Part shown: one piece after another, positions 3,743-6,437 of the stretch
Numbering within the stretch: position 1 is the first letter of the stretch
Layout of the letters: every line of letters begins with the position of its first letter
Source: a bacterium
Lineage (GTDB): Bacteria > SM23-31 > JAUVVT01
NCBI GenBank assembly: GCA_030616165.1
Contig: JAUWXV010000101.1
Location: 1-12,347 of the forward strand
DNA length: 12,347 nt
Direction: 5' to 3'
Translations under genes and position numbers: made by a program
Notes under the pieces: generated by a model
Told to the model about the DNA's origin: nothing
The model's database searches: none
The model's input: only the letters and a program-made list of their open reading frames with translations

Positions 3743-3848
3743 CTGCATTTTTTAAAACAAAAGGTGTATTATGCAAATTTTTTAAATTATTTCGAACTAA
3801 ACACTCATGCTCTTTCAGATCGCCACTAAACATGAAAATAATTGTAAT

Positions 3849-3880
3849 GACAGAACACAGTGTGCAGGCACTGTTCTGTC
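3849..3880. repeat. 12-bp palindromic stem-loop
   Basis: GACAGAACACAGTG (3849-3862) pairs with CACTGTTCTGTC (3869-3880) with a two-base bulge in the left arm and the loop TGCAGG. It is markedly richer in G+C than its surroundings. No T-run follows, so it is not a standard terminator, though it lies about 107 bases after the methyltransferase stop. It also lies between convergent genes. It could be a dispersed palindromic element or a transcript-end hairpin. Confidence 0.6.
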
Positions 3881-3898
3881 CTTACATCTAATTTCTTT

Positions 3899-3925: not shown

Positions 3926-4011
3926 TTCTATTTTCTGGTTAAATATTCATATCTACCAGGATTCTTTTCACAACTTGAAATTAGCGAAATACTACCTATA
4001 ATAATCCCTTC

Positions 4012-4044
4012 TTAACTTTTCTTTGAAAATTCTCTTCTGTTCAT
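4012..4044 (-). pseudogene. vestigial third Tat-lipoprotein leader (10 codons)
   Basis: Reading the minus strand from 4044, the frame gives MNRREFSKKS and then TAA at 4014-4012. The first 36 bases match the start of the PrcB-type lipoprotein gene at 33 positions. One change turns Leu7 into Ser and two adjacent changes turn the Leu11 TTG codon into the stop TAA. It lies 20 bases after the stop of the BsuPI-domain gene, on the same strand, as a third gene of the series would. Homology to the leaders ends after about 12 codons, and beyond it lies the spacer with the palindrome and 9-mer repeats. Most likely it is the remnant of a deleted third paralogue. A tiny expressed peptide is possible but unsupported. 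Confidence 0.6.
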
Positions 4045-4064
4045 TTTAGGTTTGATAAATTTGT

Positions 4065-4559
4065 TTATGGAATTATTTCTATAGGTACCGAAACTTTTGT
4101 ATCAACATAATTTCCTGTACCAGCATATAATCCTCCAATCGCACTATATTTTCCAACATTAACTAAATTATTTTTATTATCTCTCATATCCCACACATAG
4201 GAGTAATCGTCAGAGTCATTGGGGGCAAGCATGAGTAAGGTTGCCAGATCCCACCAAGTGTTTACTGCCATCCAGATAACTTCTCCATCTTTTTCAACCC
4301 AAAAGTTCCACTCAGGCGAATGAGGAAAAATAAACTTCACATCCTCATCTCTCAAATTAGTAACCCTATACAACATCTCCACTTTTTCTCCTAATTTATA
4401 GACAGATTTATCAGTTTGCATATAATATTTCATACCACTAATTGGTCCCGTATAAATAACGGGATTCTTTTGACTACAACCAGAAATTAAAGGAACACTT
4501 CCTATAACAATAATTACAATACTTTCCAAACCTTTCTTTAAAAATTCTCTTCTGTTCAT
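4065..4559 (-). CDS. Tat-type lipoprotein with BsuPI-like domain
   Basis: A 164-residue predicted lipoprotein. The leader carries a twin-arginine motif (NRREFLKK, residues 2-9), a hydrophobic stretch (about 12-25) and a lipobox ISGC with the lipidated cysteine at 28. The mature part (about 43-164) resembles the BsuPI domain family, named for an intracellular proteinase inhibitor of Bacillus: YYMQTDKSVYKLGEKVEM, then YRVTNLRDEDVKFIFPHSPEWNFWVEKDGEVIW, and a late G-K-Y-x-A-x-G turn. This is an immunoglobulin-like beta sandwich. Tat export suggests folding before export or a Tat preference in this organism. It lies 17 bases downstream of the PrcB-type lipoprotein, in one operon. The function is not known; protease inhibition or surface adhesion are only family-based guesses. 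No clear Shine-Dalgarno precedes the ATG. Confidence 0.82.
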   Translation of the reverse strand: MNRREFLKKGLESIVIIVIGSVPLISGCSQKNPVIYTGPISGMKYYMQTDKSVYKLGEKVEMLYRVTNLRDEDVKFIFPHSPEWNFWVEKDGEVIWMAVNTWWDLATLLMLAPNDSDDYSYVWDMRDNKNNLVNVGKYSAIGGLYAGTGNYVDTKVSVPIEIIP

Positions 4560-4576
4560 TTTAATTTTAAATAAGA

Positions 4577-5062
4577 TTATTGATTATATGATTCAAAAAT
4601 TACTGGTTTTTTTAATTTTGTTGTTTTAACAATATGATAGGGATTTATAGATAAATAATGAAAATCTCCTTGTGGAGTTTTTTCAGACACTTTGACAAAT
4701 ATGGCATTATTAGATTCGGTAATATCTAAAATATTTATTTCATAGCCCCAAATATGACACTCGCCCATATAAACTGCTAATATTGTATATCTTGAAAAAT
4801 AAGTATTAGGGACATTTAATAAATATTCTGGTGGGCTAAAAAATCTTTCAAATGCTTCTTCCCACATTTTATTCCATTCTGTATAGTCATTAATTACAAA
4901 AGATTTTTTCTCTTTGATTGTAGACATATTCCCTTTGCCAATTGTTTCAAAATCAACAGTAATGGAATATTCAACAGGATTTTTCCAACAACTAAAAATT
5001 AATAGAATACTGCATATTAAAATAAATTCCAAACTTTTCTTTAAAAATTCTCTTCTGTTCAT
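4577..5062 (-). CDS. Tat-type lipoprotein with PrcB C-terminal-like domain
   Basis: A 161-residue predicted lipoprotein with the leader MNRREFLKKSLEF, nearly the same as its downstream neighbour, and a lipobox-like IFSC with cysteine 25. Phe at -2 is less usual for a lipobox. The body fits the PrcB C-terminal family, first described in the dentilisin protease complex of Treponema: FVINDYTEWNKMW (55-67), FSRYTILAVYMGECHIWGYEI (89-109), KVSEKTPQG, NPYHIVK (140-146) and PVIFE (153-157). The usual G-G in the 'GxxxxGGY' segment is modified to IWGY. A role in assembling or stabilising a surface protease is possible by family, but no protease gene is nearby. It starts 31 bases after the stop of the barrel/YLYP gene and is probably cotranscribed. 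The first residues after the cysteine share KNPVxY with the neighbour, so the duplicated leader extends past the cleavage site. Confidence 0.8.
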   Translation of the reverse strand: MNRREFLKKSLEFILICSILLIFSCWKNPVEYSITVDFETIGKGNMSTIKEKKSFVINDYTEWNKMWEEAFERFFSPPEYLLNVPNTYFSRYTILAVYMGECHIWGYEINILDITESNNAIFVKVSEKTPQGDFHYLSINPYHIVKTTKLKKPVIFESYNQ

Positions 5063-5093: not shown

Positions 5094-6437
5094 TTATTTT
5101 AATATCACTCCCCATTCTGCAACGGTAAATCCTTCTCTTAAGAATTTTTTCACTTCTGGGAGATTTAAATTTTTCATACTGCTCGCAGGCAAAACATAAA
5201 ACCATAACCTTTTTATTGAATCCGGTTTGGGCGAGATTTCAAGAGAAAAATATTTATCAATTTCACTATCTACAATTGGATAAACTTCATAATACTTACC
5301 ATCAGGGAGATGAGTACTCCAGTATTCAATGAAATCATTAATCTCATTAATGTTAAAACCATATTCGTAAAGTATCTTTTCAAAAAAGGATATGATGTCT
5401 TTTTTCTCCACACACCAACCCCTCTTTAAGTTTTTTGGCTTTGTAATATCCCCCTCATAAAACAGATAATCATACTTTTCGTCTATCCTGCCGTTTTTCT
5501 GAACAAAAACATTCCAGCCATCATTATATTCAGGAATACTCTCTGTGATTTTTGAATTATTTTTTCTATTTAATTTTACTTTTACTGTTTTGTCTTTTTC
5601 TGGATAAAGGTAGATATTTGGCTTCTTTACTCCAACAAAATAAACTCCATAACTCTTTGGGAAAATATTTTTACTAATACTCCTGAATCCACTAAATATT
5701 TCTGATGTTGAAATATAAATACCCGTTTTAAATATTAACGACTTCTTTTCAGTTGTATATTCATACGAAGGCTTGCTAAAAATTTCATCATAAAGTGATA
5801 TATATGGAGTTATATATTTGTAGTTATACGATAAATTCAGTTCCACACTTGTTATTTTTGCATTAATTTTACGAACGCTGTTAGAAAAATAATAATCTGA
5901 ATACTTTCTTTTATAACTACCCACTGCAGTAATTGTAAAGTTTTTATATAATCTTGAAAGAGATGCTGAAAATGAATAATTCCTGAGAATATTGTTACTT
6001 TTAAAATTTCTCGAATAAGAAATTGCAGTATTGAACATAGAACTTGAATTACTTATTCCTGAACCCAAACTAAATGCAAAAAATGGATTTGACTCATACG
6101 TTGTAAAAAAAACCAACTTTGATTTACTTTTCAATCCATCATATAAATTTGAAATATTCAAATTAAAAAATAAGGGAATATTCTTAAAATTATATAAAAT
6201 ATTTGCTCCTATAGTTAAATCATAATAATTTCTGCCAACTACTGTAACTCTATTTGTTCTAAAATGATAATTTTCTCCATATACATAACCTAAATCTGTA
6301 TATAAATTCATCCAGTCTGGAATATTTAATAATTTATTTTCTTTTTCTGCCTTTATTTTTTCTTCAGCAAATGATTCCGGGAAAAAACATATATTTAAAC
6401 CAGCAATAACTAATAGATAAAAAATAAAATTTTTCAT
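5094..6437 (-). CDS. secreted protein: probable beta-barrel region plus C-terminal YLYP...EWG domain
   Basis: A 447-residue exported protein. Residues 1-24 form a signal peptide with likely signal peptidase I cleavage after SFA (22-24). Residues about 45-270 are rich in alternating aromatic/hydrophobic and polar residues (YYDLTIGANILYNFKNIPLFFNL, YSFSASLSRLYKNFTITAVGSY cores), with Asn/Ser-rich turns. That pattern fits about ten amphipathic strands of an outer-membrane barrel. From 271 a distinct domain begins with KKPNIYLYPEK. It continues with PEYNDGWNVFVQKNG, YLFYEGD (324-330), an Asn-rich NINEINDFIEYW segment (362-373) and ends with REGFTVAEWGVIL. I recognise these motifs from a widespread uncharacterised bacterial domain, usually found alone or at a C-terminus. 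The function is unknown. The gene heads the lipoprotein operon, and its upstream region has a palindrome. Confidence 0.75.
   Translation of the reverse strand: MKNFIFYLLVIAGLNICFFPESFAEEKIKAEKENKLLNIPDWMNLYTDLGYVYGENYHFRTNRVTVVGRNYYDLTIGANILYNFKNIPLFFNLNISNLYDGLKSKSKLVFFTTYESNPFFAFSLGSGISNSSSMFNTAISYSRNFKSNNILRNYSFSASLSRLYKNFTITAVGSYKRKYSDYYFSNSVRKINAKITSVELNLSYNYKYITPYISLYDEIFSKPSYEYTTEKKSLIFKTGIYISTSEIFSGFRSISKNIFPKSYGVYFVGVKKPNIYLYPEKDKTVKVKLNRKNNSKITESIPEYNDGWNVFVQKNGRIDEKYDYLFYEGDITKPKNLKRGWCVEKKDIISFFEKILYEYGFNINEINDFIEYWSTHLPDGKYYEVYPIVDSEIDKYFSLEISPKPDSIKRLWFYVLPASSMKNLNLPEVKKFLREGFTVAEWGVILK

Follow-up and report, generated by a model that had tools for sequence, protein, structure and literature searches.

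The window analysed here, which is the whole of contig JAUWXV010000101.1 (12,347 nt; C282) of a draft bacterial genome of 3.74 Mb in 343 contigs, contains two neighbouring genes in which nearly the same leader DNA is joined to two different lipoprotein bodies, followed by a third copy of the leader that has no body. We read this run as one of several leader-body mosaic lipoprotein arrays, organised like the Erp genes of Borrelia and built on a twin-arginine (Tat)-type leader, and we give this reading a probability of about 0.7. The first-pass annotation had proposed a repeated leader cassette on different domains, and this proposal is well supported by about 13 copies of the leader in three arrays of the genome, by bodies lacking mutual similarity, and by other bodies behind the same leader in the sister genus.

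The window genes and their shared leader

The ATG codons of the two lipoprotein genes (Table 1) open 36 coding bases of which 35 are identical, the sole mismatch being at base 28 (AGT vs GGT), and KNPV directly follows the lipobox cysteine in both proteins. The leader DNA and the mature N-termini are thus as alike as had been annotated, and the statement that the proteins are unrelated past the leader also holds, since the body of gene 1 belongs to PrcB_C (PF14343, E 4.3e-6) and that of gene 2 to BsuPI (PF12690, E 1.6e-6), both over the Pfam gathering score, and BLASTP finds no similarity between the two bodies. These families cover only the window bodies, not the common leader. The NCBIfam equivalog of dentilisin PrcB (denti_PrcB) gave a partial match to gene 1, far under its cut-off (E 3e-5), and the structure prediction of the PrcB-like protein was uninformative on its fold (mean pLDDT 38). 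The longest exact repeat of the two intact copies is about 30 bases, and homologous recombination becomes inefficient near this length.

Tat export of the leader-1 proteins is predicted from the RR-x-F-L-K motif of the n-region together with a TatC in the genome; each of the six class genomes encodes TatC. Lipidation is likewise predicted from motifs, the lipoboxes ISGC and IFSC being good and several others having an unusual Asn before the Cys (IYNC, IFNC).

The third copy starts with an ATG at 4044, 20 bases past the stop of gene 2 (end at 4065), where it had been annotated; the accompanying claim that it ends at a stop was not upheld. Past the TAA the frame reads EGIIIGSISLISSCEKNPGRYEYLTRK up to a TAG, the leader homology runs on through ISSC-EKNPGRYEY, and the leader profile matches with E 4.5e-16 and one stop inside. 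As the homology continues in frame beyond the TAA, the copy is a whole leader, though degenerate, that has no body behind it. It is weakly closest to the sister-genus copy G001:5036 in a tree of the leaders (67% bootstrap), which has weak support throughout. That the copy is the scar of a deletion is plausible and consistent with the recurrence of body-less leaders described below. A 23-base sequence beside this copy was also considered as a dispersed repeat and rejected, since it is not repeated in the other loci compared.

Table 1. Features of the window, with positions counted from its first base, and sites of the second leader in other loci
Feature	Position	Strand	Description	Size
Lipoprotein gene 1	4577..5062	-	leader-1 (~4961-5062) and PrcB-like body	161 aa
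Lipoprotein gene 2	4065..4559	-	leader-1 (~4449-4559, few inserted residues) and BsuPI body	164 aa
Body-less third leader-1 copy	3928..4044	-	TAA at codon 11; lipobox and KNPGRY homology kept; in-frame TAG at ~3928	
Exported protein gene	5094..6437	-	upstream of the window run; no Pfam match	447 aa
Dispersed palindromic repeat (REP/MITE-like)	3843..3886	.	GGACAGAACA...TGTTCTGTCC; ~11 genome sites	
Leader-2 sites	L031 (C197) 2763-2632, 4427-4281, 4695; L088 3824; L104 1501			

Leader copies in the genome and its relatives

The copies of leader-1 in the genome are confined to three short contigs, C282, C219 and C197. A leader profile, built from the very copies that it finds, gave 10 matches with E from 5e-24 to 3e-6 and the next one only at 0.03, a similarity well outside chance expectation; beyond these, we recognised two degenerate copies (C197:258 and C197:4738) and one cut by the end of C219 (~5589). 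Bodies follow seven copies (two on C282, four on C219 and a chimera on C197), and five others lack a body or are broken (C282:4044, C219:2684, C197:2875, C197:258 and C197:4738), the remnant at C197:4738 being the head of its array. The possibility that the same leader DNA would be found in dozens of unlinked Tat genes, raised in the first-pass annotation, is therefore not what the genome contains; since leader-1 is restricted to three contigs, and the codons of other RR proteins differ from its own, it is not an ordinary Tat signal. Two body-less leaders, L030 (C219) 2684-2821 and L088 5217-5363, each carrying Lys as its second residue, group together in the leader tree (72% bootstrap) and could represent a short lipopeptide gene instead of remnants.

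An all-against-all BLASTP comparison of the bodies yielded no significant match with one exception, in which the BsuPI body of the window resembles the N-terminal part of a protein with a different leader (21%, E 5e-4) in G005, a genome from another family of the class. Apart from the window genes, the bodies in the own genome and in the sister genus (G001) are without Pfam match, save for a weak DUF3108_like match at C219:2100 (E 4.5e-5, under the cut-off) and the chimera of C197, a beta-propeller protein. By these comparisons, the bodies behind leader-1 appear to be of unrelated origin. The G001 leader-1 gene at L032 4809-5036 has only 75 aa and its body is seemingly truncated.

Outside its own genome, leader-1 was found as two copies on other bodies in contig C285 of G001 and as one body-less copy in G005. 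Among the 386 relatives searched, which include no second genome of the same genus, there was no further comparable copy, the remaining matches having E 1e-5 or worse; the class genomes (G000, the own genome, to G005) are fragmented drafts of 300-490 contigs. An exact DNA-pattern scan of 84,980 species genomes, a set that may omit records near the window's own genome, returned the G001 contig JAUVVT010000153.1 (isolate CSMAG_1171) as its sole match. The CSMAG name is found in a cold-seep genome catalogue (PMC10491686), and, judging by this name, the G001 genome is presumably part of that catalogue.

The comparison with G001 also bears on the position of the arrays. The protein encoded upstream of the window run, which we guess to be a beta-barrel (its structure model, with mean pLDDT 30, was uninformative), has a homologue on contig C156 of G001 (36% over 330 aa, E 3e-49), and the C-terminus of another homologue sits directly before the two leader-1 genes of C285 (E 8e-6 to the window protein and 3e-10 to a second G001 homologue). 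The bodies of these two genes are without similarity to the window bodies, and a permease gene next to the G001 locus adjoins, in the own genome, a leader remnant on C197. Array positions thus correspond in both genomes while the bodies differ, and the arrays need not be strict orthologues. Conservation of both window genes across relatives, the other case that had been considered, was not observed, since the gene content differs in G001. A leader swap on the upstream gene was also considered, as the mature parts of the window and C156 proteins align from the putative cleavage site and the start of the G001 protein is leader-2-like; it is not claimed, because the signal regions may simply have diverged.

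The upstream edge of the leader lies at the ATG. Identity averaged pairwise over the copies in 10-base bins is 0.37 before the ATG, 0.56 in the A-rich last 10 bases and 0.94 after it, and it is at background 20-30 bases downstream of the cysteine. Four copies (C219:1606, C197:258, C197:4738 and G001:5036) have an upstream box in common, whose pattern TTTWTATHTCAAAAACATTR, derived from the same sites that it matches, occurs exactly at only three places of the own genome, each before a leader-1 copy. The box is not present at the window run, which follows the gene at 5094-6437 instead. The palindromic repeat of the window (fold z -4.2) shows 93% identity across 44 nt with C197:4470-4513, a site immediately ahead of the leader-1 chimera, and lies near leader-1 copies at 2 of its ~11 sites. 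By eye, a MITE-like element with the ends GCTGAAAAAGT...ACTTTTTCAGC was seen at L030 ~1410-1550, just ahead of the first leader-1 gene of C219.

A second leader, of the Sec type (RLKNKIxPYVLSLxILAGA), is reused in a similar manner, in front of a TPR/GWxTD protein and a propeller protein on C197 and of TolB-like proteins in G005, and its synonymous sites, too, are unusually alike between families (18/24 and 19/23 codons identical). In the chimera at C197:4457, codons 1-15 of leader-1 run straight into leader-2 at LEGIV/LENII, a junction suggestive of joining over a brief similar stretch.

The arrays, the orphan leaders and the chimera lead us to infer that recombination at leader DNA is the step that joins or deletes bodies. 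The cassette of about 100 bp comprises a twin-arginine n-region (MNRREFLKK), a hydrophobic stretch, the lipobox cysteine and KNPVxY as a short tether. It fronts several unrelated mature domains, whose genes follow one another head to tail in arrays resembling operons. The product of each full gene would be a protein exported by Tat, lipidated at its cysteine and presenting a distinct folded body in the periplasm or, as we suppose, at the surface. Most likely the arrays arose because the leader copies provided the homology by which genes were duplicated and leaders became joined to new bodies; where a body is lost, its leader would stay behind as an orphan, as in the third copy of the window.

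Origin of the leader similarity

The similarity of the leader DNA could have other causes. Ordinary codon bias acting on a general Tat motif, an alternative that the first-pass annotation had asked to exclude, would be suggested by the likeness of MNRREFLKK to the Tat consensus and by the other RR proteins of the genome. The copies use the same codon for the same amino acid in 82% of the pairs, as against 44% in simulations with the usage of 20 own-genome genes or gene parts and 49% with that of the bodies, and 0 of 5000 simulations reached the observed value with either table; in addition, MNRREFIKK also opens an unlinked gene on C102, which encodes it with other codons and is without the rest of the leader. 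The probability left to this explanation is negligible. Tandem duplication of a single lipoprotein gene, whose mature part would have diverged very fast while purifying selection kept the leader, fits the single orientation of the tandem arrays and the conservation of the KNPVxY tether beyond the cleavage site. Nevertheless, the two window bodies fall in different Pfam families over gathering scores and show no pairwise similarity, and the BsuPI-like stretch of G005 stands under a different leader. Furthermore, the synonymous sites of the leader are unsaturated, with pS of 0.36 between copies of the own genome, 0.38 to G001 and 0.39 to G005 (estimates from ~30 codons per copy), so that divergence by point mutation into unrelated families within that time is implausible, and we consider duplication improbable.

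These pS values are lower than those of orthologous genes, since pS of TatC is 0.57 between the own genome and G001 and 0.77 between the own genome and G005, and pS to G001 is 0.60 for the upstream gene and 0.70 for the permease fragment. Likewise, when the own genome is compared with G005, the fraction of codons that are identical is 0.87 for the leader, as against 0.42-0.46 for clpP, clpX, tig and tatC. The leader has therefore either spread after the lineages split or been constrained as DNA. Constraint on the nucleic acid itself, as a translation start or as a regulatory RNA or DNA signal, would make the synonymous similarity a product of selection; it would account for a synonymous identity about equal within the genome and across families, for the low pN of the first 12 codons (0.035) and for the A-rich start of copies that mostly have no obvious Shine-Dalgarno sequence. 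However, the same 12 codons still have a pS of 0.32, and in codons 13-36 pN (0.25) nearly matches pS (0.38), so that the DNA is not frozen and a recent common origin is favoured over strict constraint. The starts of ordinary orthologues, in small samples, were not consistently more conserved than the remainder, and constraint, even if true, would leave the unrelated bodies unexplained. We regard it as possible, though clearly less probable than mosaic arrays.

The leaders are thus probably younger in origin than the genomes that carry them, having arisen by copying and perhaps by transfer. Copies from the one genome do not clearly resemble each other more than they resemble those of the other genera, so that nothing points to homogenisation still in progress. 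The G005 copy shares its contig with a 16S rRNA gene, and such contigs are easily mis-binned; Hsp20 on this contig has 48% identity to a genome of G005's own family vs 38% to G001, a kinship that speaks mildly against mis-binning. A bolder version of the mosaic reading, in which the cassette would be a mobile module that recombination spreads inside a genome as well as from one family of the class to another, with the orphan leaders at the 3' ends of runs serving as homology arms for the insertion of new leader-bounded bodies, seems unlikely.

Comparison with known lipoprotein families

The closest parallel is the Erp family of Borrelia (OspE/OspF/Elp, with an upstream homology box), carried on cp32 prophages, in which one sequence of promoter, leader and first residues precedes bodies of many independent origins and evidence of recombination exists; its bearer is a pathogen that lives with a host, and the family has been linked to binding of the host and evasion of complement (PMC10016077; PMC9060444). 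As in Erp, the leader and the first mature residues are common here and the bodies have no detectable similarity. An upstream box accompanies three leader copies of the own genome and one of the sister genus, the window run being without it. Unlike Erp, the leader is of the twin-arginine type, the runs are short and include orphan leaders, the bacterial group is different and no role in host interaction is known. No viral contig had an exact match to the leader pattern, a reading of the ORF lists of the three contigs brought no prophage genes to notice, and the families that Pfam and NCBIfam matched to leader-1 proteins did not include Erp, OspE or OspF. An Erp-type genetic scheme in an uncultivated lineage would mean that the scheme arose elsewhere too, with a Tat-type leader, and the leader-1 arrays would offer a compact system in which to test leader-bounded domain swapping by strain comparison.

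Rearrangement of surface lipoprotein genes has also been described for the Vpma and MBA multigene families of Mycoplasma and Ureaplasma, in which variants or chimeras are reported to arise by site-specific recombination through Xer1 (Vpma) or by inversion at inverted repeats (MBA) (PMC5634654; PMC3047005). The arrays described here differ from these families, since no recombinase gene was noticed close to them and the leaders of any one run are repeated in direct orientation.
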